This document shows, in pieces, positions 2,300 to 25,088 of a stretch of 25,088 nucleotides of DNA. The stretch is from a virus, in IMG/VR virus record IMGVR_UViG_3300030333_001525, positions 1,022 through 26,109 of that record. One strand, given 5' to 3'. A program made the translations under genes and the position numbers. The notes below the pieces were generated by a model that saw only the letters and a program-made list of their open reading frames with translations, ran no database searches and was not told the DNA's origin. Every line of letters starts with the position of its first letter. Position 1 is the stretch's first letter.

Positions 2300-3123
2300 T
2301 GTTAGGATTAGGCGTAGGATTTTACAAGATAGCAGGTAATGAATATCCAATTGGTGGATTTTTACCTGATCAAATAGCAAACTTAGCCTTGTGGTTACCT
2401 TATAATACTGGTATAACATCTGATCAAGACAATACTGTAGATTCTCCTGTTAGTCATGATCACTCTACAGCCGCAGGAAACATGGCTGACGAAGATAGAA
2501 TTAACGCTTGGAACGACGCTTCTGGTAACGCTGTGCACGCAGAACAAGACACTTATGCAGATAAACCACTATGGGAAACAGACGCGGCTGACATTGGTGG
2601 TTGTAATTTTACTGGTACAAAGTTTTTTGATCTTGCTCGAACTATAACTATACCAGCAAACACTGATTTTACTATGATTATGAGACTTAAAAGTACGCTG
2701 GCAAGCTTACCACATGGTCTTCTCGGTTCTACTGACGATCAAGAGTTTCTTAGAATACATACTACTTCAAAGTTTAGATTAAAAGTTAACAATCAAAACC
2801 ATAACTTTACCTCTCCATCTGGTACTTTAGCTAACGATACTTATTATACAATAATATTAACAAGATCTAACGGTAGCACAGGTACTTTTAATTTTTATAT
2901 TAAAGGTGGATCTTACACCACAGACACTGGTGTAGAGTGGACTGGTGGTGGTGCAAGACCAGACGGACCTATAACCATAGTCAATGTAGGTTGTCAAGAT
3001 GATGATAGTAACCCGTTTCGTGGTGTTTTAAAAGATGTTTTAATTTACAACGGAACAGCTGTAACATCTGACGAAAGAAAACAATTGTTTGATTATATAG
3101 AAGGACAAACAAACCCGTATTAA
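2299..3123 (+). CDS. LamG/concanavalin A-like lectin-fold virion protein
   Basis: A 274-residue protein. The N-terminal part has 'NLALWLPYNTGI' and 'RINAWNDASGNAVHAEQ', the usual entry to LamG-like phage and bacterial proteins ('LALWLDAS... W.DASGN..HA.Q'). Residues about 105-265 form the beta-sandwich: 'TITIPANTDFTMIMRL', 'DTYYTIILTRSNGSTGTFNFYI' (in two strands), and 'GVLKDVLIYNGTAVTSDER', which is the characteristic last strand and helix. The fold usually binds carbohydrate or surface polymers, so it probably helps attach the virion to the host envelope. It begins with no signal peptide and is coupled by TAATG to the previous gene. The fold is fairly certain; its position in the virion is inferred. 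Confidence 0.75.
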   Translation: MLGLGVGFYKIAGNEYPIGGFLPDQIANLALWLPYNTGITSDQDNTVDSPVSHDHSTAAGNMADEDRINAWNDASGNAVHAEQDTYADKPLWETDAADIGGCNFTGTKFFDLARTITIPANTDFTMIMRLKSTLASLPHGLLGSTDDQEFLRIHTTSKFRLKVNNQNHNFTSPSGTLANDTYYTIILTRSNGSTGTFNFYIKGGSYTTDTGVEWTGGGARPDGPITIVNVGCQDDDSNPFRGVLKDVLIYNGTAVTSDERKQLFDYIEGQTNPY

Positions 3124-3464: not shown

Positions 3465-3660
3465 TATAGGTAAAGACTATAAGAACGACGCCATGCACTA
3501 TGCTGTTGGTCAAGAAGTTTACGGAGGTCATACTATTTGCGATATATTAGAAGAAGAAGATAAATATTCTATTTATATTAAAAAAAATAAAGACGTATTA
3601 CCTTGGAAAGACTTCAATAAAAACATGGCTGTATCTGTAGAATATAACTTAGAATACTAA
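3439..3660 (+). CDS. 73-residue conserved phage protein of unknown function
   Basis: This small protein begins inside the preceding gene (26-base overlap). It reads 'MAKLIRKISIGKDYKNDAMH' and then 'YAVGQEVYGGHTICDILEEE', followed by a short beta strand 'YSIYIKKNKDVLPW'. The 'KISIGKDYK..AMHY.VGQ.V.GG..I..I' pattern is one I recall from short proteins placed just before packaging genes in Bacteroidota phages. It looks like a small SH3-like or beta-barrel domain. No catalytic motif is visible. It is coupled by TAATG to the following GroES-like gene. Confidence 0.6.
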   Translation: MAKLIRKISIGKDYKNDAMHYAVGQEVYGGHTICDILEEEDKYSIYIKKNKDVLPWKDFNKNMAVSVEYNLEY

Positions 3661-4241
3661 TGAAAAGTGTTTACAACTATGTTGTAAAACCAAAAGGCGG
3701 TAGATATAATAATAGTAAAAAAGTTGGTGATAAAGAGTTAATAATTAATACTGAAATATTTAATCACAAACACGTTAATAGAAAAGCAACAGTTTTATCT
3801 ACGCCTATAATTGGTAATACAATTATTGAGCCAGGCGATGACGTTATAGTACATCATAATATATTTCGTAGATGGCACGATATGAAAGGAGTAGAACGTA
3901 ATAGTAAAAGCTATTTTAACGAAAATACTTATGTTATATCAGAAGATCAAATATTTTTATATAAAAAATTTTGGGAGTGGAAAACAGTACCTGGTTATTG
4001 TTTTGTAAAACCTATAAAAAACTTTGATAAGTTTAACATAAACAAAGAACAACCCTTAATGGGTATTATAGAATACGCTGATAAAGGTTTTAACAAAGGC
4101 GATTTAGTTGGCTTTAGACCAAGCAGTGAATATGAGTTCGTAATAGACGGACAAAAATTATATAGAGTTTTATCTAAATTTATTACAATTAAATATGAAT
4201 ATCAAGGAAACGAAGAAACTTATAATCCAAGCTGGGCATAA
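3660..4241 (+). CDS. Putative tandem GroES-like (Cpn10) co-chaperonin
   Basis: A 193-residue protein that can be read as two successive GroES-type beta-barrels. The first (about 4-102) has a start strand 'YNYVVKP', a loop with a hydrophobic 'ELIINTEIF' where GroES has its mobile loop, then 'RKATVLSTP', 'IIEPGDDVIVHHN', and the closing 'VISEDQIFLYK', which matches the GroES order 'RGEVLAVG / VGDIVIF / MSESDILAIVE'. The second (about 110-181) repeats it: 'GYCFVKPI', 'LMGIIEYAD', 'FNKGDLVGFRP', 'YRVLSKFITIKYE', with no mobile-loop equivalent. Phage co-chaperonins such as T4 gp31 work with host GroEL to fold the capsid protein; its place upstream of the head genes fits. Identity at residue level is low, so the fold call is an inference. 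The 3' end overlaps the next gene by 47 bases. Confidence 0.5.
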   Translation: MKSVYNYVVKPKGGRYNNSKKVGDKELIINTEIFNHKHVNRKATVLSTPIIGNTIIEPGDDVIVHHNIFRRWHDMKGVERNSKSYFNENTYVISEDQIFLYKKFWEWKTVPGYCFVKPIKNFDKFNINKEQPLMGIIEYADKGFNKGDLVGFRPSSEYEFVIDGQKLYRVLSKFITIKYEYQGNEETYNPSWA

Positions 4242-11917: not shown

Positions 11918-12724
11918 ATGGCAAAAAAACAAAAAACTGAAAAGGTAGAGGTACCTGTTGTTGAAACACCAGTTGTTGAAACACCAAAACCTAAAAAAGA
12001 TACTTGGGAAATAAAAGATAGAATATACTATTTATTAAGAGATAGAAAGCCTTTGAGCTACACTATAAAGTCTTCAGGTATATATTATTTTGATGAAGAA
12101 AAAGGTTACGAAAGAGAATTAAAATATTGTGAAAATCAAAAAACTCCTTTTGTTGATGAAATGAAAGGTGATCAAAGATTAGAACATATAGTATTTAGAA
12201 ACGGACACCTTCATGTTCCAAAAGAAAAAACAACTTTACAAAAACTATTAAGCTTATATCATCCAAACAGAGATAGTTTGTTTTATGAATATAAAGCAGA
12301 AGAAGAAGCAAAAGATGAACTTGCTTTGATAGAGTACGAAATAAAAGCTTTAAATCTTGCTAATACTTTAGATATAGATATGGCTGAAGCTATTATGCGT
12401 GCAGAAATTGGATCTGAAGTATCTAACATGAGTTCTAAGGAACTTAAACGTGATTTACTTATATTTGCTAAGAAAGATCCTTATTTGTTCTTAGAGCTAG
12501 CTACAGATGAAAACGTTCAGCTTAGAAACTTTGGTATTAAAGCTACAGAGATGGGTATATTAACTTTATCAGGAGATCAAAGAACTTTTACTTGGACTTC
12601 TAATGGTAGAAAATTAATGAACGTGCCTTTCGATGAACATCCTTATTCAGCTTTAGCTGCTTGGTTTAAAACTGACGAAGGTATGGAGATTTATTCTAAT
12701 ATAGAAAAAAGATTAAATCAATAA
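11918..12724 (+). CDS. Terminator-bounded phage protein of unknown function (probable virion or assembly protein)
   Basis: A 268-residue protein. The N-terminus has low-complexity 'VEVPVVETPVVETPKPKK', including a perfect tandem 15-base repeat at the DNA level. A conserved-looking block then begins 'KDRIYYLLRDRKPLSYTIKS' and runs through 'FDEEKGYERELKYCENQ' to 'DQRLEHIVFRNGHLHVPKEK', continuing to 'LQKLLSLYHP'; this looks like a small alpha/beta domain. I recall similar blocks in hypothetical proteins next to capsid genes of marine Bacteroidota phages. The C-terminal half is helical ('MAEAIMRAEIGSEVSNMSSK', 'LRNFGIKATEMGIL') and ends 'DEGMEIYSNIEKRLNQ'. It sits between two intrinsic terminators, so its expression is separated from the capsid gene and from the ring genes. 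No enzyme motif is visible. Confidence 0.65.
   Translation: MAKKQKTEKVEVPVVETPVVETPKPKKDTWEIKDRIYYLLRDRKPLSYTIKSSGIYYFDEEKGYERELKYCENQKTPFVDEMKGDQRLEHIVFRNGHLHVPKEKTTLQKLLSLYHPNRDSLFYEYKAEEEAKDELALIEYEIKALNLANTLDIDMAEAIMRAEIGSEVSNMSSKELKRDLLIFAKKDPYLFLELATDENVQLRNFGIKATEMGILTLSGDQRTFTWTSNGRKLMNVPFDEHPYSALAAWFKTDEGMEIYSNIEKRLNQ
11957..11986 (+). repeat. Perfect tandem 15-bp repeat (two copies)
   Basis: Two identical copies of gttgttgaaacacca encode the doubled 'VVETP' in the N-terminal linker of the 268-residue protein. Identity at every base, including third positions, points to a recent slippage duplication that keeps frame. Confidence 0.9.
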
Positions 12725-12731
12725 TAATTAT

Positions 12732-12756
12732 GGTTACCCTTCGGGGTAACCTTTTT
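12732..12756 (+). terminator. Intrinsic terminator after the 268-residue gene
   Basis: A perfect 8-bp stem GGTTACCC/GGGTAACC closes a TTCG tetraloop at 12740-12743 and is followed by five T (12752-12756). It starts 7 bases after the stop codon. Its stem sequence differs from the one after the capsid gene, so the two are not a simple duplication, but both use the extra-stable TTCG loop. Confidence 0.9.
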
Positions 12757-12767
12757 AAAAATTTAAT

Positions 12768-12956
12768 ATGGATAGAAATTTAAGAAATTATAGTCAAAGA
12801 TCTAGAGGTTTAGGCGATACCATAGCAAAGTTTACTCATGCTACTGGTATTCATAGTTTAGCACAAATAGGTGCTAGAGTAGTAGGTAAAAAAGATTGTG
12901 GATGTAAAAAAAGACAAGAAGCTTTAAACAAAGCTTTCCCATATAAAAATAAGTAA
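12768..12956 (+). CDS. CGC-motif mini-protein
   Basis: A 62-residue basic protein. It reads 'GLGDTIAKFTHATGIHSLAQ', a short hydrophobic/Ala-Gly stretch, then 'KKDCGCKKRQEALNKAFPYK'. The pairing of 'GLGDT...FT.ATGI' with a terminal 'CGC..RQE.LN..FPY' is one I recall as a recurring unit in Bacteroidota phages, alone or at the ends of larger proteins. The two closely spaced Cys could bind metal as a dimer or be lipid- or redox-active; nothing in the sequence decides this. It starts 11 bases after a terminator, so its transcription probably depends on read-through. It is spaced by one base from the next gene. Confidence 0.6.
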   Translation: MDRNLRNYSQRSRGLGDTIAKFTHATGIHSLAQIGARVVGKKDCGCKKRQEALNKAFPYKNK

Positions 12957-12957
12957 T

Positions 12958-13650
12958 ATGATATTTATAGATACTGTACATCAAAGAGTTTTAGCTTTAG
13001 CTAATAAAGAAAATAGAGGTTATATAACTCCTTTAGAGTTTAATCTTATGGCTAATCAAGCTCAGATGGCTATATTCGAACAATATTTTTATGATTTAAA
13101 TCAATTTAAAAGAGATCCTAATAACTTAACAGATGTAGGTAGTTTTTCAGATTTACCAGAAATGATAAGAATGAAGCTACGACCATTTACTGGTTACGGT
13201 GTTCCAACAGCAGACACATATCAAGTAGGTAAAATATTTTATGAACCTAACAATAATACAGCAACAGCTCTTGAAGCTAGAAAAGTTGATGATAACGAAG
13301 CTAGGTTTCTTTTAACATCTGCTTTTCATAGAAGAGGTTTAAGAAGACATCCTATTTATATAGAAAGAGGTGGTGAGTTTATAGTATATAACCATGAAGG
13401 CCCGCAAACAGCTGGGGTTTTTGCTGAAGTAATTAGAAGGCCTAATAGAGCGGAGTGGGGCTATAATGTTGTTGCTGAAAAAGCTTTATATAACGCTAGC
13501 TCTTCTACTGACTTTGAACTTCACGAATCAGAAGAAAATAATCTTGTTATGCGTATATTAGGTTTAGCAGGTGTAATTATAAATAAACCAGAGCTAGTAG
13601 CTATATCAGCGCAAACAGATTCAAAAGATATTCAACAACAAAAAATGTAA
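12958..13650 (+). CDS. Portal-vertex connector/ring protein 1
   Basis: A 230-residue protein with 'VLALANKENRGYITPLEF' (about 11-28) and 'NQAQMAIFEQYFYDLNQF' (about 36-53), helices that I recall as the conserved start of head-tail connector (ring) proteins in crAss-like and other Bacteroidota podoviruses. A middle beta region ('YQVGKIFYEP', 'HPIYIERGGEFIVYN', 'GVFAEVIRRPNRAEWGY') precedes a C-terminal helix 'EENNLVMRILGLAGVIINKP' and 'DSKDIQQQKM'. It probably binds under the portal to extend the DNA channel. The role rests on remembered synteny and fold pattern. The next gene begins four bases after its stop. Confidence 0.6.
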   Translation: MIFIDTVHQRVLALANKENRGYITPLEFNLMANQAQMAIFEQYFYDLNQFKRDPNNLTDVGSFSDLPEMIRMKLRPFTGYGVPTADTYQVGKIFYEPNNNTATALEARKVDDNEARFLLTSAFHRRGLRRHPIYIERGGEFIVYNHEGPQTAGVFAEVIRRPNRAEWGYNVVAEKALYNASSSTDFELHESEENNLVMRILGLAGVIINKPELVAISAQTDSKDIQQQKM

Positions 13651-13654
13651 ATAA

Positions 13655-15010
13655 ATGACTAATTATTATAATAGATTTTTTCCTAGTAATTTTGGAGCAT
13701 ATCAATATGTAAACATGGAAGATGTAATTGATAACTTTATGGCTACTTACGTTGGAGAAGGTAAACTATTAGAAAGAACTTTACGTGCTGACGCTAGTTT
13801 TCACGGCCATAGGGCTTTACAAGAATTATCTTATGACACGTTAAGATCTCATAAGTCGCAAGAAATAGAAATACCGCCATCGCTAAGTATGATACTACCT
13901 GAAGATTATGTTAACTATGTTAAGTTAACTTGGAGTGATGAATCAGGTATACAGCATATTATTTATCCTACTGATAAAACATCAAATCCTACAGCAATAA
14001 AACAAAACGATGATGGTGATTATAGAATTACAGCTACAGCTACAGTAACAGAAGGATCTGCAGAAATAGTTTTAAATGAACAAAGACTAGACATAAGATA
14101 CGGTATGTTTGTTCAAAGCGAAGGTACTTTAAACAACTCTAATTGTACTATTCACGAAATAGAATATGGTACTTCTACAACTACTATAACTTTAGCTGAA
14201 GCAGGTGATACAACTGTTTGTCAATGTCTTTGGGGTACTGGGGCTTCAACAAATTCTCAAGCAACTTTTCATTTTACTAGTAACCCAGCAACTTTTTCAC
14301 AACAAGAAGAAACTCCAGTACTTTTAGAAGGTACTTCTTGGCCTTCTAGTGCTTCTCAGGAAATAGTAATTACAGCAGCTAGCGCTGATGATGCTTCTAA
14401 AGTAAGTGTTGGTATGATAGCTGCTAATGAAAATTTACCAGTAGGAGTTAGAGTTCATAGTGTACAAGGTGATAAAATAATATTAACAGCAGACTCTGCA
14501 GTAAGTGCTGCAACAGGACAAGACGTAGTTTTTTATAGCTCAAATACAAACTCAGATACTAGCTCTAAATATAAACTTGCAACTCCAGCAGAAAACAATA
14601 ACGATGATTATGAAGATGATTCGTATTGGCCTAATCATGGCGAAAGATATGGATTAGAACCTTCACACGCTCAAATAAACGGTAGCTTTTATATAGATTA
14701 TAAAGGTGGAAAAATACATTTTAGTTCTAATTTATCTGGAAAAACTGTGATACTTAAGTATATAAGTGATGGTATTGACACGTCTTCTTTTGAAAGCATG
14801 TTAATACCTAAACTAGCAGAAGAGGCGGTTTACAAATGGATGGCTTATGGTTGCGCTTCAGCTAGAACAGATATACCAGAATACATAATAAGAAGATTAA
14901 AAAAAGAAAGATTTGCTGAAACTAGAAAAGCAAAGCTAAGATTATCTAATATTAAATTAGAAGAAATAAGCCAGATATTAAGAGGTAAGTCAAAACAAAT
15001 TAAACACTAA
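13655..15010 (+). CDS. Connector/ring protein 2 with inserted beta-repeats
   Basis: A 451-residue protein. Residues 1-105 are a helical N-terminal domain ('NMEDVIDNFMATYVGEGKLL', 'HRALQELSYDTLRS', 'LPEDYVNYVKLTW'). Residues about 125-300 are an insertion of two beta-repeats of the type 'GSAEIVL...YGMFVQSEG... TTTITLAEAG' and 'KVSVGMIAANENLPVGVRV... DKIILTADSAV'. The conserved body resumes at 'DSYWPNHGERYGLEPSHAQ' and 'YKGGKIHFSSN'. It ends in the helical 'GCASARTDIPEYIIRRLKKE', 'RKAKLRLSNIKLEEISQI' and 'RGKSKQIKH'. I recall that C-terminal block from tail-ring proteins of Bacteroidota podoviruses. It likely joins the portal/ring stack to the giant protein encoded next. The insertion could be a surface-exposed decoration. 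Confidence 0.6.
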   Translation: MTNYYNRFFPSNFGAYQYVNMEDVIDNFMATYVGEGKLLERTLRADASFHGHRALQELSYDTLRSHKSQEIEIPPSLSMILPEDYVNYVKLTWSDESGIQHIIYPTDKTSNPTAIKQNDDGDYRITATATVTEGSAEIVLNEQRLDIRYGMFVQSEGTLNNSNCTIHEIEYGTSTTTITLAEAGDTTVCQCLWGTGASTNSQATFHFTSNPATFSQQEETPVLLEGTSWPSSASQEIVITAASADDASKVSVGMIAANENLPVGVRVHSVQGDKIILTADSAVSAATGQDVVFYSSNTNSDTSSKYKLATPAENNNDDYEDDSYWPNHGERYGLEPSHAQINGSFYIDYKGGKIHFSSNLSGKTVILKYISDGIDTSSFESMLIPKLAEEAVYKWMAYGCASARTDIPEYIIRRLKKERFAETRKAKLRLSNIKLEEISQILRGKSKQIKH

Positions 15011-15016
15011 TAAAAT

Positions 15017-18000
15017 ATGCCGGATCTTAATCATAGATTTTCATCAGGTAAAATGAACAAAGACCTTGATGAAAGGTTAGTGCCTAATGGTGAATATAGA
15101 GATGCTTTAAATGTAGAAGTTGCTACTTCTGAAGGATCTGACATGGGTACTGTGCAAACTCTTAAAGGTAACGTAAATGCTTCAGCAATACTAGAAACAA
15201 TTGATCCTAACGGTAATGAAAACTTTTATTGCGTAGGTAGTATTGTAAACGAAAAAAACGATAAAATATATTGGTTAGTATCTGGTGTTACAAAAGATTT
15301 AATTGTTGAATATGATTATACAACAAAAACTACTGTACCTGTCGTTGTAGATATATTTACAGCAGGTGTTTTACCAGGTAATGACAGTGGTAGAGCTTTA
15401 AACTTTGATAGATCATTGTATATTACTGGTATAAATATTATAGATGATTTGTTGTTTTGGACAGACAATTACACAGAGCCAAAAAGAATACATATAGAAA
15501 GATGTAAATTAGGTTCTGTTGATTTTAACACGCAAACTCAATTTTACGTAAGAGATGCGGCTGATATAAATCCAAATAACGAATACATACCTATAGGTCC
15601 TATTATACAAGAACATATTACCGTTATAAAAAAAGGACCTCCTAACGCTCCAGTTCTGGAGATGAGAAATACATTAAGACAAGAAACAGATGCAAGTACA
15701 ACATACGGTAGTTTTGTACCTGAAGCTTTTTTGCAAATATTTGGACAAATAGATTTAAGCGCTGCTACAAACCAAGATCCTTTTATAGATAGTGATGGTA
15801 ATTTAATAACTGATACTACAGTAGTTATTGACTTTGCTCCTTATGCTTTAACAGGTCAATACCCAGACTTTCATAATGGTGATTACATAAGAATATATCC
15901 TGGCGAAGGAGAACCAGAGGGTGATGATTATATTAGAGCTCAAATAGTAAACGGTATTGATCATTCTGTAGGTTGGAACGGTACTGTTGAAATACAAATT
16001 TTAGCCGGTACACGCATACACTCTGACGATAACATGTATTATGTAATGTTAGAAGACGGTGAAACTTTATTTAAGTTTAAATTTCCAAGATTTGGTTTAA
16101 GATATAAATATGAAGATGGTGAGTACTCTGCTTTTTCACCTTTTTCACAAGTAGCATTTTTACCAACTAGTTTTGATTATAGACATAAAGAAGGTTATAA
16201 CTTAGGTATGGTTAATAACTTAAGATTTTTAGCTATAAAAGATTTTGTTCATGGTAGGCAAATACCAGACGACGTTATATCTATCGATATACTTTACAAA
16301 GAATCTAACTCTCCTCTTGTTTATACCGTAAAAACAGTTAAAAGATTTACTAATGACTGGAAGCCTGGTTGGGCGCCTGGTCAAGTTGCACCTGATGATT
16401 CAATACAAAGATATAGTGAGTGGAACGCAATAGGTCCTAATCAAGGGCCAGGCACAGATGCTGGTGTAAACAACATTTCTTCTAACCAAAGAACTAGAGG
16501 TTGGACTAGAATAACATCAGAAATGATACACGCTGTTTTGCCTTCAAATCAATTATTAAGACCCTGGGATAACGTGCCGAGAGTTGCTTTGGCGCAAGAA
16601 GTTACTGGTAATAGAATAGTATACGCTAATTATTTACAAAACTTTAATTTATTTAATACTCAAAGTACAGTTTCTTCTGCTTTGCTTAACTCTTCAGAAC
16701 ATAACTACGGTGAACTGGAGGCTAGTAAAGATATAGATATTGATATAAAAATAGGTTATAAAGCTAAAAAAATAAATGAAACTATACTTTTACCTGAACA
16801 GAAAAATGCTTATTTAGAAAGTGGTGATACTAGTAGTTATAATCCTGCTAAATCAATTAAAACACTAAGAACGTATCAATTAGGAGTTGTTTATATAGAT
16901 GAGTTTGGTAGAGAAACACCTGTTTTTTCTGACAATAAAAAAGGTGAAAATACAGTGTATTTAGAAAAAGATGTAGCTAATAGATCTAATTATTTAACAG
17001 GTCAACTGTTTAATATAGCTCCTGAGTGGGCTAAATATTTTAAGTTTTTTATAAAAGAAACTTCAGGTGAATATTACAATTTAGCAATGGATCGTTGGTA
17101 CGATGCTGAAGATGGTAACATATGGTTGTCTTTTGCATCATCAGAAAGAAACAAGGTTGACGAAGAAACATTTTTAATACTTAAAAAAGCTCATGATAGC
17201 GACAGAGCTATATATGAAGATCCAGCTGCAGATAATTATCAAGGTTTTATAAAAACAAAAGCTAGATATAAAATAATAGCAATATCTAATGAAGCACCTA
17301 TATTTGTAAAAACAACTAAAACAAATAAACCAACTTTTTTAGATAATAGTGGTGATCTTATAGCAACAGCTAGTGGTGTTGGTTTTCCTCAAGTAGGTAC
17401 TAATAATATTTATATAGATAGAACTAATGCTGATGCACAAGGTTGGGGTAGTATATTAGGTGTAGCTGAAGACGCAGAACGTGTAGATATATCAAAGTTT
17501 GAACTTAGAGTAAAAGGTCCTGAAGGTATTAGCGCTTGGTATAAAGTTAAAAACGTATCACTTGTAAATATTGGTAGTGGTTTTTATAATATAGTTGTAC
17601 AAAAATTATTTAAAGCAGATATAGAAGTATTATCTTTAGACGGTCAATACACTAGCTATACTGGTGGTGGGGAAATAGAATTAGTAGAAAATATTGTTGA
17701 AAACAAACCAGAGTTTGACGGTAGATTTTTTGTTAAAATTAAAAAAGATATAAATCTTATAGAAAATATAATACAAGAGTCTAGTCAATCAAAAAACTAT
17801 GTAGTTTCACAAGCTTTACAATCACAATATATTAATCCAGATTCTGTAGATTCAGGTGGTAATAGTCAAGCTTTTAATGAAGAGTGGTATAATATACCTG
17901 GTAGCTCAGGTGGTGTATTAGATCTTCACGAAATATCTGTTTCTGAAGAAAATGATATAACATACTTTAGCCCAGGTGATCAAGGCGTAGGTGAAGAATA

Positions 18001-21000
18001 TTGGGATAAAGCTAGTAGATCAGAAGCGGCTTCTACAGAAACTAATGCAGATTCTAATGGTTGGTTTATAGATAAAGTAGAAGGTTTTAGACCTTTTAAA
18101 TACGTTAATTACTTTTTTGATATTGATGATCAATTTGGTGTTAACGATAGAACTCATATAGATGGAGCTTCAGATATCCACAATCATATGACTCTTGGTA
18201 GTGTAACTACACAACATGATTATTTTGGACAATACGAAGATAGAGGGGGTTTACAAGTATTAGGCACAAACACGTATGAAAGAGGAAATTTTGATGATTA
18301 CTTATTACAGTTTACTAATGGTAACATGCCTGTTTATAGACCACAACTTTATACAGATGGAACACCTATTGGTATTGGAAATTATAGCCCTGGAGTTACT
18401 GGTAAAGAAATAATAAGTGAATTAAGAAACGCTCCAGGTACTCAAAACGGTAAAATTGTACCTTCTGTGGGTATAGATACAGACGATAATGTTATACATT
18501 TATCTTACTCTGGTATTGGTGATGAAGGCAGTCCAACAGATGTGCCAGAAAATTTATCTGAATTACGCTTAGATTTTTCTGATTATTCAAGTTTTAATCA
18601 ATATGTTTCTGATCAATTATTTATAAATTCAATATGCACTCCTGGTACTATATGGAGATGGAGAGAAGATCCAGATAAAATTCTTTACGTAACTAAAACT
18701 CCTAACTATGATGATATTGATCAAGATGCTCTTGAGTGGGGATATAATACTAGAGATTATATAAATGGCGGCGCTTATTATGGTGTTGCTTTATATAACT
18801 ACGTAATATTTCAAGATTATTATAGACCAAACACGCATGAGGCTAGTGGAGTTAGCGCAACGCACTTAAGCTGGGCTTCTCAAGGTTTTCCAGATACATT
18901 TGAAAATGATGACTTTGAGTTTCCAGAAGAAAATCCTTCTGGTAGTGGAAACTGGGTTTTAAGTATGTCTGATAACTCTGGTGTTGCAGTTCCTGCTGCT
19001 GGGGCTGGTGCTGCTATAGATCAAATAAGTGAGTTTTTAATGAGTTACGGTACGGCTTGGGCAGATTTTTATCAAAATGCTGATGGTGTTGAACAAGGTG
19101 GTGATAATCCTTTAAGATTTGGTAGAACATCTGGTGAGTGGACTTGGAATAACGCAGGTCCTGAAATAACAGGAAACTGTCATTACTATCATCCGCAAAG
19201 AGTTAAAGAGTTTTGGAGAGGTATAGCAAAAAGAAGAAGGTATCAGTTTCACGCTGTAACTTTTGAAGACGATGGTAGCGCGCCACAAGGTTTAGGCGTT
19301 AAAGGTGATTCAAAATATTTACCTACAAATCCAACTGATCTTCCACCGCATTATGATCTTGATAGTTCAACGCTTGCAATTACTGTTAAAAGTACAGTGC
19401 CAGCAACACCGGCTCCGGGTATACGTTCTGATGGTATGTATTCTGGTTCTGAACTTTCTAGCGGTGATACAGTTCCTTTCTTTAAAACAGAAGATGAAAG
19501 TGGTAATATTTCTTTAGCACCAGGTACTTGTACTTGGCAAATATTAGAATCATATTCTGAATATGAAGAATTAAATTATTCAAGCTCTAATCCAGCTATA
19601 TGGGAAACAGAACCAAAAGAGCAAGTTGATTTAAATATATACCAAGAAGTAGGACAGATATATCCAATAGAACTTAACGATGAAACTAACGAGCAGTTAG
19701 TTGGGCCAGTGCATCCTAGAACATTTGAATATTATAATAGCTTTGTTAGATGTTATAGATCTAACGCAACGATAAGACTTCTTGACAGTGATAGCGGTTT
19801 ATTTAGCAGCAGTGATATAAGAGTACAAAGAATAGAAGATAATGTACTTTATTTATGCGATGTTGAAGGTGTTGATTTAAACAATGTTGTTAACAATCCA
19901 ACTCTTCCAGTTGAAGGAGATACTTTAGAGTTTATTAGAGCCGATAGAGGTACAACAAGAGCTTATGTTATTGCTGTAGACGAAACTACTGGCGCTATAA
20001 CTTTAGCTAGAGATTTACATAATCATCAAGTTAGATTACCTTGGCATAATTGTTATTCGTTTGGTAATGGTGTTGAATCTGATAGAATACGTGATGACTT
20101 TAATCAAGTTACTATAGATAATGGACCTAAAGCTTCAGCTACATTAGAAGAACCATATAAAGAAGAAAGAAGAGGTAGTGGTTTAATTTATTCTGGTATA
20201 TACAACTCAAGAAGCGGTATAAATAATTTAAATCAGTTTATACAAGCAGAAAAAATTACAAAAGATTTAAATCCTATATACGGTACAATACAAAAACTAT
20301 ATAGTAGAGATACTAACTTAGTAACTTTTTGTGAAGACAAAGTATTTCAAATATTAGCCAATAAAGACGCTTTGTTTAATGCTGATGGTAGTTCTAATGT
20401 AACATCAACAGATAGAGTTCTTGGTTTTGCAAAAGACTTTAGAGGTGATTTTGGTATATCTAAAAATCCTGAATCATTTGTTGCTGAGTCTTATAGGATG
20501 TATTTTACAGACAAAACAAGAGGTTCTGTTATAAGATTATCTGCAGATGGTATGACGCCTATATCTGACTATGGTATGCAAGATTATTTTGCTGATAATT
20601 TAAAACATGCTAATAGATTAATAGGTACATTTGACGAAAAGAAACAAGAATATAATTTAACGTTAGATCACAAAGATTATCCAATACCTATTGATCCTAT
20701 AGTTATGGCTACAGCCAACGTAGAAATAGAAGCTGAACTAGTAGGTAATGATTATTTTCCTACTAATAGATTAAAAGTTGCTACAAACGTACCTATTATA
20801 GCAGGGCAAATAGTAAGAGGCCCAGGTTTACAACCTAACACTGTTGTTACTGGAACAAGTATACAGTTTGGTATTTTATATGTAGAAATAAGTCCTGCGC
20901 CAGATTTAGCAGAAGTATCACCATTATTAGGCCCTAGTGTTCTTGGTGATTGGTCTGGTTGGTTTACACCTATTACAATATCTCAACCTTCTTCGTACGC

Positions 21001-24000
21001 TTCTATATTTTCAAATACAACTAATGCTTTAGATAGAACTGTATCTTTTTCTGAAAGAGTTAAAGGTTGGGTAAGTTTTAAATCATTTATACCTGAGGGT
21101 GGTGTTAGTTTAAACAATACATACTACACGTTTAAAAAAGGTATATTATGGGAGCATCATGCTAACGAAACTAGAAATAATTTTTATAATGATCAGTATG
21201 ACTCTAGCGTTGAAGTGCTTTTTAACGATGCGCCTAATGTAGTTAAAAGTTTTCAAACGCTTAATTACGAAGGTACTCAATCAAGAGTAACTCCCGATAC
21301 AGTAAATGATGGTGAATATTGGGACAACTATGAAAAAGCTGGCTGGTATGTAGATAATATGATAACAGACTTGCAAGAAGCAGGGCAGCAAGAGTTTAGA
21401 GATAAAGAAAACAAATGGTTTTCGCAAATAAAAGGTGTGACTACGCAATGGTTGGATGACGGTAAAGCTGGTAATATAGATACAAGAGAGTTTTCATATC
21501 AAGGTATAGATAATAATTATGAAAAATTTGTTATTGATGGCGGTTATACTTCTTATGATTGCGCACCTTGTCCTGGTTGGAACGGTGTTTATGGAATAAT
21601 GGAGCTAGGGCCTGGAACATCGAGAACTCTTGATTTTAGCGGTCAAACTTTTGGACCAATAACTAGTACACCACATAGTACAATACTTGCTGCCTTTACT
21701 GGATTTAGACAGGCTAGAGCTGAAATGTATGAATGGTTTTTTGATAATCCAACTTTTAAATTCAGAAATTATTATCATTTAACGTATCAATATCGACCAT
21801 TGATACCGAACTATTATTATATAAACGGTGGAACAGATCCAGCTGATCATATAGGAGGCATGTACATGGGTGCTGCTAATTTTGTGCATACAGCAGGATA
21901 TGGCGGACATGCGCCAGGCGCAGGGCAGTATATTTTACCTTCAACTCTTAACGTAGGACAACGCACTGAGCTTACTACAGCAGAAGAGGCTATAAATTAT
22001 TTTGCAACTCATTACAATACTGCTACGTATGGAAATCCTAATTTCCGTATTGGTATGAGTTATGCTGAATTTAAAGATAAAGCGTTTAGCTTATCGCCAA
22101 CACCAGGCACAAATTTTACTGGCGGGCATCAATATATTCAACCATTAGACGCTGCTCCATACGCAGGTAATTTGCATAGAATTAGTTGTGGTAATGGTGG
22201 TTTTGCATGCCGAGAAGTACCAGGTAAAGTTGGTGAGCCAGGAGCTGGTCAATATGCTACTTTATCACAATGTGAAAACGATCCAACAAATAATTGTGGT
22301 ATAATAGGTACTTCTTTTGATTGTGATCCTGTGCTTGGCTGTCATGAAGTCACAGGTTCTTCAGGGCCTTATTCTAGCTGGTGTGAGTGTATACAAAATA
22401 GTAGTTGTTGTGCTAATATAGGTGTTGACGTAGTTGGTTTAGATGGTATAGGCGTAGTAAGTAATTCTGCAACTCAATATTATACAGATAACTGCGATCC
22501 TAATGCTGTTTATGGCTGTATGGATGTTGATGGTACAAGCACTATAATTAACAATGTAGATGTAACAGAAGACAGACCTACTGGTTGGACTGGTTCTGCT
22601 TCTAACTATAATCCTTTAGCTACGGTACATACTTGTGACTGTACTTATACTACAGCGCCAGTTTCTTTTAATTGTTTATCTGATGGTATAGGTGGATTTA
22701 GCTGTGTTGATCCAGGCGATGGTAGTGGTTATTATGCAAGTTTAAACGACTGTATAAACGATCCAAATAGTAATTGTTTAGTAACAATACCTTGTGATCC
22801 AAATATGCCTTATCAATTTATAACATCAGTGTTAGATGCTACTGGTGTTGTTGGCGCAGCAGATCCTTGTGATCCAACAAACTCTGATGGTCAGATTATT
22901 CTTGGTATAGATAATTTAGGGCCTAATGCTGCAAATATAACAGTTGAATTATATTATGATGATGGTTCTGGTGGTTTAGGTAGCCTTGTGTTTGGTAATC
23001 AAACAACACAGTATTTTGTAAACGATAATATTACTATTCCAAATCTTGAAGCTGAAAATTATATATTTAGATTTGAAGATGATAATAATTGTGTTTATAC
23101 AATGCCTATAACAGTTAATTGTAATTTTACTCAACCACCAGTTTGCGATCCTAATAATTTTGGTATTTCAAGTACAGTTACACGAAGTTTTCTTTCTACC
23201 GACTGTACTGTAGTTGGTGATTATACTATAACAGGTCAAGCAGAAATAACAGTTCCATTTAACGGTTATGGAACAACAAGTGGAAGCTTTAGACTAAATA
23301 TAAAAGCCTTTTTAAATCCTGGTACTCTTGGCACAGATATAACTAATCTTGTTTCGTTTAACGGTGTAGTTGGTACTGCTAATACTTCACAAAACTTTAC
23401 TTTTGGAACTATAGTTACTATTGATGGTATTTTAGCAGTAGCAGCTTCTAACTATAATAATTTTACAAATGGATTACAGTTCCAAATTACAATTACTGAT
23501 AGCGATGGTTGTCGTACTACAGAAATAATAGAAATACCTTGTAGTGAAATACAAATACCAGCAACAATTGATTGTACTTCTAGTGGTTGTATAGACCCAG
23601 GTGACGGAAGTGGCTATTATACAGGCGCTAATGCTTTAGCTAATTGCGTAAATGATTTTGCAAATGGTGTTTCACCTTGTCCTCCTATAGCATCAAATTG
23701 TCCATCGCAAGAACCTTTTGGTTCGAGTCTAGGTTCTACTGGTTTATCAGCTGTTTTAAGCGACGCTTTTAACGATGATTGTAACAATGGAGCTTTTCAA
23801 GTATACTTTACATCTAATACAAATGCTAGTACATACACGCTTGAGTTGTTAAGAGCTGAACCAGGTAATACTTTTTCTGTTGTTGCTCATCCTAATAATA
23901 ACACTAATATGGTTCTTGATACTAACAACCAAATGATACCAACAAACTTTATTGGTAACTTTATTACAGATACTATTGTGTTTAATAATTTAGAGGGTGG

Positions 24001-24148
24001 TTATGGTAATCCAATCGATGGTTTTAATAACGCTGGTGTTCCAGTAGTTGGAGATTCAACTCATTATTATGTACGTATAACTGATAATTTTGGATGTCAA
24101 GAAGAATTTGGTCCAGTACCTATAGCTTGCACTAGACCTTTAGCATAA
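15017..24148 (+). CDS. Giant tail-tip (muzzle/stabilisation-like) protein with host-like Cys-rich C-terminus
   Basis: A 3043-residue protein taking up over a third of the window in one uninterrupted frame. The N-terminus has 'GKMNKDLDERLVPNGEYRDA' (11-30), a signature I recall from the large structural protein that closes the tail of Bacteroidota podoviruses. 'NDKIYWLV' and 'LLFWTDNYTEPKRIHI' (145-160) resemble YWTD-type beta-propeller blades. Other conserved-looking blocks are 'FPRFGLRYKYEDGEYSAFSP' near 355-375, 'FDGRFFVKIKKD' near 900, and the stretch 1772-1858 with 'FCEDKVFQILANKDALFNAD' and 'DFGISKNPESFVAESYRMYF'. A stretch of roughly 870 residues (about 900-1770) and a C-terminal extension (about 2165-3043) look like additions. 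The last 650 residues are Cys-rich with SprB-like repeats. It should seal the portal channel and contact the host surface. No protease or lysozyme motif is seen. Confidence 0.75.
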   Translation: MPDLNHRFSSGKMNKDLDERLVPNGEYRDALNVEVATSEGSDMGTVQTLKGNVNASAILETIDPNGNENFYCVGSIVNEKNDKIYWLVSGVTKDLIVEYDYTTKTTVPVVVDIFTAGVLPGNDSGRALNFDRSLYITGINIIDDLLFWTDNYTEPKRIHIERCKLGSVDFNTQTQFYVRDAADINPNNEYIPIGPIIQEHITVIKKGPPNAPVLEMRNTLRQETDASTTYGSFVPEAFLQIFGQIDLSAATNQDPFIDSDGNLITDTTVVIDFAPYALTGQYPDFHNGDYIRIYPGEGEPEGDDYIRAQIVNGIDHSVGWNGTVEIQILAGTRIHSDDNMYYVMLEDGETLFKFKFPRFGLRYKYEDGEYSAFSPFSQVAFLPTSFDYRHKEGYNLGMVNNLRFLAIKDFVHGRQIPDDVISIDILYKESNSPLVYTVKTVKRFTNDWKPGWAPGQVAPDDSIQRYSEWNAIGPNQGPGTDAGVNNISSNQRTRGWTRITSEMIHAVLPSNQLLRPWDNVPRVALAQEVTGNRIVYANYLQNFNLFNTQSTVSSALLNSSEHNYGELEASKDIDIDIKIGYKAKKINETILLPEQKNAYLESGDTSSYNPAKSIKTLRTYQLGVVYIDEFGRETPVFSDNKKGENTVYLEKDVANRSNYLTGQLFNIAPEWAKYFKFFIKETSGEYYNLAMDRWYDAEDGNIWLSFASSERNKVDEETFLILKKAHDSDRAIYEDPAADNYQGFIKTKARYKIIAISNEAPIFVKTTKTNKPTFLDNSGDLIATASGVGFPQVGTNNIYIDRTNADAQGWGSILGVAEDAERVDISKFELRVKGPEGISAWYKVKNVSLVNIGSGFYNIVVQKLFKADIEVLSLDGQYTSYTGGGEIELVENIVENKPEFDGRFFVKIKKDINLIENIIQESSQSKNYVVSQALQSQYINPDSVDSGGNSQAFNEEWYNIPGSSGGVLDLHEISVSEENDITYFSPGDQGVGEEYWDKASRSEAASTETNADSNGWFIDKVEGFRPFKYVNYFFDIDDQFGVNDRTHIDGASDIHNHMTLGSVTTQHDYFGQYEDRGGLQVLGTNTYERGNFDDYLLQFTNGNMPVYRPQLYTDGTPIGIGNYSPGVTGKEIISELRNAPGTQNGKIVPSVGIDTDDNVIHLSYSGIGDEGSPTDVPENLSELRLDFSDYSSFNQYVSDQLFINSICTPGTIWRWREDPDKILYVTKTPNYDDIDQDALEWGYNTRDYINGGAYYGVALYNYVIFQDYYRPNTHEASGVSATHLSWASQGFPDTFENDDFEFPEENPSGSGNWVLSMSDNSGVAVPAAGAGAAIDQISEFLMSYGTAWADFYQNADGVEQGGDNPLRFGRTSGEWTWNNAGPEITGNCHYYHPQRVKEFWRGIAKRRRYQFHAVTFEDDGSAPQGLGVKGDSKYLPTNPTDLPPHYDLDSSTLAITVKSTVPATPAPGIRSDGMYSGSELSSGDTVPFFKTEDESGNISLAPGTCTWQILESYSEYEELNYSSSNPAIWETEPKEQVDLNIYQEVGQIYPIELNDETNEQLVGPVHPRTFEYYNSFVRCYRSNATIRLLDSDSGLFSSSDIRVQRIEDNVLYLCDVEGVDLNNVVNNPTLPVEGDTLEFIRADRGTTRAYVIAVDETTGAITLARDLHNHQVRLPWHNCYSFGNGVESDRIRDDFNQVTIDNGPKASATLEEPYKEERRGSGLIYSGIYNSRSGINNLNQFIQAEKITKDLNPIYGTIQKLYSRDTNLVTFCEDKVFQILANKDALFNADGSSNVTSTDRVLGFAKDFRGDFGISKNPESFVAESYRMYFTDKTRGSVIRLSADGMTPISDYGMQDYFADNLKHANRLIGTFDEKKQEYNLTLDHKDYPIPIDPIVMATANVEIEAELVGNDYFPTNRLKVATNVPIIAGQIVRGPGLQPNTVVTGTSIQFGILYVEISPAPDLAEVSPLLGPSVLGDWSGWFTPITISQPSSYASIFSNTTNALDRTVSFSERVKGWVSFKSFIPEGGVSLNNTYYTFKKGILWEHHANETRNNFYNDQYDSSVEVLFNDAPNVVKSFQTLNYEGTQSRVTPDTVNDGEYWDNYEKAGWYVDNMITDLQEAGQQEFRDKENKWFSQIKGVTTQWLDDGKAGNIDTREFSYQGIDNNYEKFVIDGGYTSYDCAPCPGWNGVYGIMELGPGTSRTLDFSGQTFGPITSTPHSTILAAFTGFRQARAEMYEWFFDNPTFKFRNYYHLTYQYRPLIPNYYYINGGTDPADHIGGMYMGAANFVHTAGYGGHAPGAGQYILPSTLNVGQRTELTTAEEAINYFATHYNTATYGNPNFRIGMSYAEFKDKAFSLSPTPGTNFTGGHQYIQPLDAAPYAGNLHRISCGNGGFACREVPGKVGEPGAGQYATLSQCENDPTNNCGIIGTSFDCDPVLGCHEVTGSSGPYSSWCECIQNSSCCANIGVDVVGLDGIGVVSNSATQYYTDNCDPNAVYGCMDVDGTSTIINNVDVTEDRPTGWTGSASNYNPLATVHTCDCTYTTAPVSFNCLSDGIGGFSCVDPGDGSGYYASLNDCINDPNSNCLVTIPCDPNMPYQFITSVLDATGVVGAADPCDPTNSDGQIILGIDNLGPNAANITVELYYDDGSGGLGSLVFGNQTTQYFVNDNITIPNLEAENYIFRFEDDNNCVYTMPITVNCNFTQPPVCDPNNFGISSTVTRSFLSTDCTVVGDYTITGQAEITVPFNGYGTTSGSFRLNIKAFLNPGTLGTDITNLVSFNGVVGTANTSQNFTFGTIVTIDGILAVAASNYNNFTNGLQFQITITDSDGCRTTEIIEIPCSEIQIPATIDCTSSGCIDPGDGSGYYTGANALANCVNDFANGVSPCPPIASNCPSQEPFGSSLGSTGLSAVLSDAFNDDCNNGAFQVYFTSNTNASTYTLELLRAEPGNTFSVVAHPNNNTNMVLDTNNQMIPTNFIGNFITDTIVFNNLEGGYGNPIDGFNNAGVPVVGDSTHYYVRITDNFGCQEEFGPVPIACTRPLA
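20712..20930 (+). other. Beta-repeat unit inside the giant protein
   Basis: Residues about 1900-1971 read 'NRLKVATNVPIIAGQIVRGP', then 'GLQPNTVVTGTSI' and 'LYVEISPAPDLAEVSP'. The order (strand, aGqxVxGpGl, nTxV, strand, xISpaxdL) matches the two repeats inserted in the ring protein at 14025-14545. I recall it as a common short beta module in marine phage virion proteins. It interrupts the block leading to 'VLGDWSGWFTPITI'. Confidence 0.5.
22181..24142 (+). repeat. Cys-rich repeats alternating with SprB-like domains (protein level)
   Basis: This is the region encoding the last 650 residues of the giant protein. Cys-rich units lie at about 22181-22305 ('FACREVPGKVGEPGAGQYAT'), 22315-22416 ('FDCDPVLGCHEVTGSSGPYS'), 22667-22778 ('FSCVDPGDGSGYYASLNDC') and 23566-23680 ('SGCIDPGDGSGYYTGANAL'). 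All follow C(x)nCx(E/D)xxxxxGxYxxxxxC. Between the second and third, 'YGCMDVDGTS' and 'ASNYNPLATVHTCDC' (about 22491-22650) resemble the Bacteroidota 'GCTD..A.NYNP.A..DDGSC' motif. Three larger domains at about 22790-23125, 23143-23550 and 23695-24140 each start with Cys-Asp-Pro or Cys-Pro. They run through beta strands to 'FRFEDDNNCVYTMPITVNC', 'TITDSDGCRTTEIIEIPC' or 'VRITDNFGCQEEFGPVPIAC', the ending of SprB/PKD-like adhesin repeats. Confidence 0.7.
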
Positions 24149-24166: not shown

Positions 24167-25088
24167 ATGATATTAAGTATATACAATTTTAAACTATATT
24201 ATCCTGGTCATAGATATGATGGTCGAACACCATCTGAAGGAGGTAGAGAAGAAGCAAGAGAAACTGAAAGAGAAGAAAGAGCTGAAGACGATACTTCAAG
24301 AACTACTGAAGATGAAGCTGCTTATGCTGCTGAATATGGCGTTAGTTTAGAAGAAGCAAAAGATAGACTTCGGTCAATAAATAAAACTGGTGGTGCTTCT
24401 TGGACTAAAGCTTCTACTAGTACGTATGACTTTGATACACCTCAAGGAGTTGGACCTGTTACTAACACCAAAGTAGATATAGAAAAAAGAGCTGAATCTA
24501 GAGGTGATACATTAAAACGTAAAAAAAGATTAAGAGACTATGGTGATGAGTATTCAGGTGATGGTGACGTTAGGGGTGAAGAAAAAAGAAAAACACCTAA
24601 TAGAAAATTATATGGCCAACCAGAAGAACCATCTGTTGCTAAAACAAAATACGATAAAGTAATAAGCACTTATTCAATACAAGGTATTGATCACGGTAGA
24701 TCAAGACCTATAAAACAAACAGGTGAAACTAGAAAAATTGAATTATCTGGAACACCAGGCTCTGTGTTTACTATAACTATTAAAGATAGTGAAGGTTGTA
24801 ATATATTAGATAAAGATTTAAATAATGTTGAAATACCAAGAAATGGTAAATTTATTTTAAAACAAAAATTTCCTTCTATTTATTCTAGTGAGGGTGTTTC
24901 TAGAACTGAACAATATTACAATATTAATTTAACAGTAGCCGCTGATGTTTATGTTAGTAATTCTATAGAAAGAAGTACAACTATATATCAATATAAAGAT
25001 CCTATAGTTACTTTTAGTAAAACTTATGATACTAGCGGTGATTTACCAACTTTAACTTTAGCTGGTAATGATGTTTCTGTTTCAGGCA
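24167..25088 (+). CDS. N-terminal part of a further structural protein (runs off the window)
   Basis: A frame opens at ATG 24167, 18 bases after the giant gene's stop, and stays open for 307 codons to the window edge. Residues 1-160 are low-complexity and charged ('EGGREEARETEREERAEDD', 'KRAESRGDTLKRKKRLRDYG'), probably disordered. From about 165 the sequence becomes beta-rich: 'KVISTYSIQGIDHGRSR', 'TRKIELSGTPGSVFTITIKD', 'NNVEIPRNGKFILKQKFPSI', 'YYNINLTVAADVYVSN', 'TTIYQYKDPIVTF'. The 'I.GTPGS.FTITI.DS.GC' block is one I recall from virion proteins of marine phages. It is likely a tail or fibre component acting with the giant protein. No Shine-Dalgarno precedes it; the leader is A/T-rich (tataaaactttttaat). 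Confidence 0.65.
   Translation, partial: MILSIYNFKLYYPGHRYDGRTPSEGGREEARETEREERAEDDTSRTTEDEAAYAAEYGVSLEEAKDRLRSINKTGGASWTKASTSTYDFDTPQGVGPVTNTKVDIEKRAESRGDTLKRKKRLRDYGDEYSGDGDVRGEEKRKTPNRKLYGQPEEPSVAKTKYDKVISTYSIQGIDHGRSRPIKQTGETRKIELSGTPGSVFTITIKDSEGCNILDKDLNNVEIPRNGKFILKQKFPSIYSSEGVSRTEQYYNINLTVAADVYVSNSIERSTTIYQYKDPIVTFSKTYDTSGDLPTLTLAGNDVSVSG

Follow-up and report, generated by a model that had tools for sequence, protein, structure and literature searches.

Which protein of a virus ends in a long, cysteine-rich stretch resembling Bacteroidota surface adhesins, and what does that stretch do? The question is raised by the window analysed here, 25,088 nucleotides of DNA forming a fragment (about 25-26 kb) of IMG/VR record IMGVR_UViG_3300030333_001525. 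The original prediction had described a host-adhesin-like tail on a giant phage structural protein, and suggested that this tail may mimic or compete with host adhesins, or may have been captured to bind the same polysaccharide. The region concerned is covered by one uninterrupted plus-strand ORF of 3,043 aa, and both the ORF and its last 655 residues (2389-3043) were as described.

Parent gene and layout of the C-terminal arm

The parent of the Cys-rich tail, which the original prediction had left unnamed, is a crAss-like muzzle (tail-tip) protein. Pfam model PF25729 (crAss_MUZ_C) matched the window protein with 38.5 bits, compared with a gathering cut-off of 27, and matched 14 of the 15 members of a core alignment (A6) in which the window was 26-78% identical to its 14 relatives. 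The crAss_MUZ model PF25731 gave no match to the window protein and matched only two of the 15 aligned cores; this model apparently covers a narrower group, so that the poorer fit is to the model and not to the muzzle family. A tblastn search along the ORF detected relatives only among flavobacterial crAss-like phages, namely Cellulophaga phi38:1 and Calle, Tenacibaculum Gundel, the Flavobacterium elemo phages and an uncultured spring phage, and an identical set was obtained by a terminase search. The gene order of portal, structural genes and muzzle was common to the window and cultured crAss-like phages, and terminase and portal were both matched by PHROGs. Judged by sequence, the nearest cultured relatives of the window muzzle are flavobacterial phages, and the virus, a crAssphage relative, probably infects marine flavobacteria. 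The structural gene region also contains a 193-aa ORF (3660-4241) matching the PHROG co-chaperonin GroES family (E = 1e-14). Immediately 3' of the muzzle gene is a highly charged ORF (24167-25087), continuing past the window edge; it matched no PHROG, and its Pfam match was below the threshold.

PhicrAss001 is the only phage for which a hexameric muzzle is known (gp44; Bayfield 2023). This hexamer is at the tail tip and has a gate whose opening is required for ejection; muzzles of this type likely contact the cell surface (PMC10172136). The window protein is like gp44 in having crAss_MUZ_C, in its place after other structural genes and in being a giant tail-tip protein. Length variation of the muzzle has been noted before in crassviruses, where insertions within two domains, crass and IG2, were given as its cause (PMC10172136); the window, in contrast, has an 860-aa extension after the MUZ_C core containing Cys units and SprB-like domains. 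Three attempts at a sequence link between the window muzzle and the solved chain, which would have placed the C-terminus on the hexamer, gave none. The sole match in the solved-chain search, a fatty-acid-binding protein (E = 0.02), was attributed to chance.

The muzzle core ends at about residue 2183, and residues 2184-3043 are referred to here as the arm. Its parts follow one another in the order given below.

15017-24148, plus strand: muzzle (tail-tip) protein gene, 3,043 aa (ORF; Pfam crAss_MUZ_C, E = 1.6e-9; tblastn)
19817-21565, plus strand: conserved muzzle core, residues 1601-2183 (alignment A6; crAss_MUZ_C matches)
20675-21031, plus strand: insertion site 1 within the conserved core, residues 1887-2005 (gap separating the two core halves; alignment A6)
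21170-21433, plus strand: crAss_MUZ_C domain, residues 2052-2139 (Pfam PF25729)
21566-22177, plus strand: swapped cassette, residues 2184-2387, 204 aa, no Cys (50% aa identity and dS 1.28 to L005, between flanks with dS 0.14 and 0.20)
22187-22297, plus strand: Cys unit 1, residues 2391-2427 (alignment A8, conserved Cys)
22322-22411, plus strand: Cys unit 2, residues 2436-2465 (in alignment A8, where most relatives have the DPGDGSG form)
22514-22648, plus strand: degenerate NYNP/DDGSC-like motif, residues 2500-2544 (GCMD...RP.GW.G.ASNYNPLATVHTCDCTY, kept in 13 relatives)
22673-22777, plus strand: Cys unit 3, residues 2553-2587, CVDPGDGSGYY (pattern and profile match to the cellular unit)
22793-23122, plus strand: SprB-like predicted Ig-fold domain D1, residues 2593-2702 (AlphaFold2 pLDDT 91, seven strands; hhalign 95.5%)
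23144-23542, plus strand: marginally SprB-like domain D2, residues 2710-2842 (E = 0.11 to the D1 profile; dN/dS 1.03 [0.63-1.93])
23573-23680, plus strand: Cys unit 4, residues 2853-2888, CIDPGDGSGYY (sequence; alignment A4)
23699-24130, plus strand: terminal domain D3, residues 2895-3038 (weak last-strand similarity; another domain in L003 and L004)

Cysteine made up 5.2% of residues 2388-3043 (34/656) compared with 0.5% of residues 1-2187 (Fisher p = 8e-14). No direct library match for the tail was detected in Pfam (E < 1), NCBIfam (E < 1) or the PHROGs (E < 0.1), nor any match in PDB sequences or 50,697 phage records, and a search of 85,000 species genomes found neither a relative of the whole tail nor a host adhesin like the whole arm. 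The protein starts with MPDLNHRFSSGKMNK, which is not a Sec signal, and the T9SS sorting domain TIGR04183 was not found in the tail. BACON domains were not matched by Pfam in the 3,043-aa protein or in any of 16 tails.

Relatives of the arm modules in phages and Flavobacteriales

Four Cys-rich units had been predicted and four were found, with the form Y/W-x-C..G-x-C-x-DPGDGSG-x-Y..C..C. In alignment A8, made with 13 phage homologues at 35-89% identity, Cys was kept in 90.3% of cells compared with 34.9% for other residues, and disulfides are therefore implied. As the whole-tail search of species genomes had found nothing, a DNA pattern for CxDPGDG[ST]Gx[YF] was used to find the unit. Viral contigs had 117 stretches matching this pattern, and the 85,000 species genomes had 45. 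All but one of the 162 viral pattern matches (161/162) lay inside ORFs of >120 aa. The cellular matches in long ORFs were nearly all from marine Flavobacteriales, Crocinitomicaceae and Saprospirales, while about 13 of the 45 species-genome matches (Pseudomonas and others) were discarded as chance because they lay in short frames. The full Cys set, that is the first Cys and the later Cys pair, both of which lie outside the pattern, was present in 146 of 162 viral copies and 44 of 47 cellular copies in long ORFs. Phage and cellular unit profiles matched with a probability of 98.8%, the cellular DPGDG core having been pre-selected by the pattern.

A T9SS type A sorting domain was present in every cellular Cys-unit protein scanned (8/8), in most cases immediately following the unit, and the cellular units were placed between this domain and a functional domain or lipid anchor; these modules occur beside many different functional domains in cells. 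A MAG labelled 'Euryarchaeota' with Cys units and a T9SS-like end (L169) was probably misbinned. By alignment and profile, the Cys unit is a real four-cysteine module common to phages and secreted Flavobacteriales proteins. The phage unit has the four-Cys form of the marine Flavobacteriales units found beside T9SS type A sorting domains; those units are exported by Sec and T9SS, whereas the protein that bears the phage copies has no export signals. Though common in marine phages and flavobacteria, the module defined by this analysis was not matched when Pfam, NCBIfam and PHROGs were scanned. A Cys-knot (knottin) with interlaced disulfides was considered for it; the AlphaFold model of the Cys array (pLDDT 58) had only strand-strand-helix units and was too poor for a fold search.

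The near-copy of the NYNP/DDGSC motif in the original prediction corresponds to a motif-like stretch at residues 2500-2544 (...SNYNPLATVHTCDC), which is degenerate; the exact motif is absent from the window. Three relatives (L014, L015 and L020) do have exact copies, as did every one of the 12 Flavobacteriales genomes searched, with a reversed-pattern control giving 0 everywhere.

SprB repeats (Pfam PF13573) come from the Flavobacterium gliding adhesin. The Pfam model detected none in 11 phage records at E <= 1, and the relationship was visible only with a profile built from 11 phage domains (A2). All 12 Flavobacteriales genomes tested were matched by this profile, mostly within large SprB-positive ORFs, as judged by ORF length and place; two proteobacterial genomes had no match. 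When the phage domain profile was compared with cellular SprB repeats, hhalign gave a probability of 95.5% (E = 1.5e-8). An AlphaFold2 model of D1 (pLDDT 91) was a seven-stranded Ig-like sandwich for which Foldseek retrieved Ig, FN3 and PKD-type domains, including PKD 4xed (TM 0.41-0.45), none with E < 0.001. In the model the fold class is clearly Ig-like, with no close structural homologue found. The D1 profile matched D2 marginally (E = 0.11) and D3 with an E value of 4, the similarity being confined to the last strand; D3 was also locally similar to the final domain in L017 and L007.

Three SprB/PKD-like domains had been predicted: by profile comparison this assignment is firm for D1, marginal for D2 and limited to the last strand for D3. 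D1 is like the SprB repeat in its predicted Ig/PKD-like fold, its ..GxY.v.v.D..GC.. ending and its profile similarity, and unlike it in being missed by the Pfam model, longer (~110 aa) and closed by a C-terminal Cys. In contrast to the SprB adhesin, the phage domain is in a virion protein with no signal peptide and no T9SS domain. Both outcomes that would have told against the original prediction, phage-only homologues and folds unlike Ig/PKD, were looked for; instead, the pattern, profile and T9SS-domain data relate the Cys unit and the SprB-like domain to secreted Bacteroidota proteins, and the model of D1 bears out the expected fold. As far as these comparisons go, the host phylum has the modules of the arm in secreted proteins, most of which are exported by T9SS. 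It was not borne out that the arm had been captured recently from a host adhesin: phage D1-like domains clustered apart from cellular SprB repeats, in a tree with low support built on 103 columns, and the 85,000 genomes held no whole-tail relative.

The closest precedent for the arm is the BACON repeats on crAssphage tails, tandem copies of a Bacteroidota surface-linker domain recruited into tail proteins (PMC6949934). Common to both cases are a Bacteroidota surface Ig-like module on crAss-like tails, horizontal exchange and a distinct phage cluster. The window differs in its modules (four-Cys DPGDGSG, DDGSC and SprB-like), which are on the muzzle itself and in aquatic flavobacterial phages.

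Variation of the tail and the split muzzle

The C-terminus was compared across related phages, as the original prediction had proposed, and proved to be exchanged between them: the tail is absent or different in relatives while the muzzle core is conserved. Behind the core there were 16 aa in L023 and L024, 74-80 aa without Cys in Gundel and phi38:1, 165-173 aa with canonical NYNPLATxDDGSC repeats in L015 and L020, and 357 aa of cadherin/Ig type in L021; other relatives had tails of 573-1,490 aa with Cys-rich and other domains. The muzzle tail of L018 (13802-14968) has a leucine-rich-repeat-like end, as judged by eye (..LTTLDLSNNPNMNYI..), without a Pfam match. In L003, the muzzle is followed by a 688-aa ORF (12464-14530) with a bacterial Ig (Big_9)/cadherin-like domain, an adhesion-type protein of the tail region.

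Segments are exchanged between close relatives. Residues 1-2160 of the window protein were 97-98% identical to those of its closest relative (L005, 3300030389_003250), with a dS of 0.14; the cassette (compared over residues 2181-2387) had 50% aa identity and a dS of 1.28; and over residues 2401-2593 identity was back to 94%, with a dS of 0.20. This tenfold jump in dS, which then reverts, indicates recombination of the cassette, a replaceable segment that the original prediction had not recognised. In the same pair, omega increased along the protein from 0.07 in the core to 0.15 in the Cys array, 0.36 in D1 and 1.03 [0.63-1.93] in D2, with dS at the core level; the D2 value of ~1 rests on one sequence pair, and two further close pairs exhibited the same trend toward the C-terminus. 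L003 and L004 had a common terminal domain unrelated to D3, and their BLAST matches to the window ended at D3. The Cys array, made up of the four-Cys units and the NYNP/DDGSC-like unit, is strongly constrained, and the Ig/PKD-like SprB-type domains after it are variable.

At least 56 of the 117 viral pattern stretches (60 counting duplicate contigs) had a muzzle homologue. Unlike gp44 of PhicrAss001, the muzzles of some window relatives are split around Cys-unit genes, the split point corresponding to window residues ~1887-2005. This subgroup has a part of 1,400-1,630 aa, an insert gene of 169-570 aa with 4-10% Cys and up to six units, and a part of 257-269 aa with MUZ_C. Contigs with a Cys-unit insert gene are L065, L106, L072, L033, L064, L048, L031 and L087; a split muzzle was also seen in L211 (phi13:2) and L027. 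The muzzle of cultured phi13:2 (L211; gp120/gp121) is interrupted at this position too but has no Cys units there; the muzzle of MW202828 is likewise split at this point. In split-muzzle phages, the Cys unit was either N-terminal to a terminal domain of ~110 aa or in a separate gene between the muzzle halves. As Cys units are present in both fused tails and insert genes, the module can be either fused or supplied as its own gene.

Proposed role of the arm and phage-encoded adhesins

We propose, with a probability of about 0.6, that residues 2184-3043 are a modular, exchangeable receptor-binding arm on the muzzle of a crAss-like Flavobacteriales phage, comprising stalk Cys modules and variable Ig-like domains. 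Such an arm most likely grips the host surface. In cells the Cys units precede T9SS domains; by analogy, those of the arm may be small disulfide-stapled stalk modules, and would be oxidised once the virion is out of the reducing cytoplasm, after lysis. The original prediction had asked when disulfides could form; these are documented in crassvirus tails (PMC10172136), so cysteines in a virion protein are no paradox and oxidation after release is plausible. On such a stalk the Ig-like domains would stand off from the tail tip. They may bind a variable host-surface ligand (a glycan or outer-membrane protein) during docking, and binding could contribute to triggering the gate of the muzzle. Each virion would have six arms if this muzzle is a hexamer like that of PhicrAss001. 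The arm is not essential for tail-tip function, as phi38:1 and similar cultured relatives have no such arm.

The arm might instead be a structural spacer that stabilises or lengthens the tail tip or packs on tail fibres, with no host ligand and with neutral variation. The spacer-like position of the cellular units, which separate the T9SS domain from a functional domain or lipid anchor, is compatible with this, very short tails are enough in L023, L024 and phi38:1, and the omega near 1 of D2 could equally reflect relaxed constraint as an alternative to receptor-driven change. A pure spacer is nevertheless unlikely, as terminal domains were replaced by unrelated ones (Ig/cadherin-like in L021, and others) over a conserved core, and cassettes were exchanged with divergent donors, as is typical of receptor-binding regions. 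That the modules belong to families common to secreted proteins of the host phylum would also suit an arm that imitates gliding or surface adhesins of the host, competes with them or engages the host adhesin machinery, as the original prediction had in part envisaged. This appears improbable: the modules are generic surface building blocks found beside many functional domains, the phage SprB-like domains cluster on their own, the arm has no T9SS signal, and among the 85,000 species genomes no specific host adhesin resembled the whole arm.

It is very improbable that the terminal domains are enzymes degrading capsule or exopolysaccharide. The gene between the muzzle halves of MW202828 is annotated 'putative glycosidase' and the top Foldseek matches of D1 were Ig-like regions of GH3 glucosidases; however, the 183-aa MW202828 gene had no Pfam match, so that its glycosidase reading was set aside, D1 is modelled as a 110-aa all-beta sandwich with a poor GH3 match (TM 0.3), and the Pfam, NCBIfam and PHROG scans detected no enzyme family on any tail of the window or its relatives. 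Diversification by a diversity-generating retroelement has been reported for crassvirus tail spikes (review PMC10136315), and the tail is variable. A retroelement target was rejected as extremely improbable, since no reverse transcriptase was found in 14 related records (incomplete contigs, in which absence is not proof) and D1/D2 substitutions were not adenine-specific.

A receptor-binding arm would bear on the muzzle, the least understood part of crassviruses and the gate by which the cell has to be sensed. With an arm that is exchangeable, fast-evolving and disulfide-rich on the muzzle of aquatic relatives, tail-tip recognition would become testable with small soluble domains. The arm would also add to BACON a second, independent example in which crAss-like tails are built from Bacteroidota surface modules.

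Proteins with a Sec signal and DDGSC repeats were encoded by three crAss-like contigs, two of the three with a T9SS domain above the NCBI cut-off.

L219, 8271-11513, plus strand: Sec-signal DDGSC-repeat protein gene
L220, 9605-11569, minus strand: Sec-signal DDGSC-repeat protein gene
L214, 11293-14052, plus strand: Sec-signal DDGSC-repeat protein gene

Relatives of these proteins were encoded in 171 viral stretches from crAss-like and other viruses, 80 of which were kept (L221-L300). All 65 complete ORFs among those kept had a signal-like start by a simple heuristic, and 30 of 40 C-termini scanned matched TIGR04183 (T9SS type A). These proteins were read as host-exported adhesins encoded by phages, with superinfection exclusion as a possible function. 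Earlier papers report T9SS cargo encoded by Cryophage (PMC7468147) and by one BACON phage cluster (PMC6949934); no report of a family this large was found in the literature searched. We tentatively suggest, as somewhat short of an even chance, that a shared library of disulfide-stapled modules (DPGDGSG, DDGSC and SprB-like Ig) circulates between host T9SS proteins, phage-encoded T9SS adhesins and the muzzle, entering the latter at two hot spots, one of which splits the gene so that the module becomes an interchangeable separate gene.

Two further arrangements were observed. The muzzle tail of L014 (11492-13417) has seven NYNPxATxDDGSC-type repeats, and the same contig encodes a T9SS-type DDGSC adhesin. 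Near-identical ORFs of 198-200 aa with one terminal Cys unit were present in many virus contigs (L036, L037, L045, L054 and others), with no muzzle in the stretch examined.
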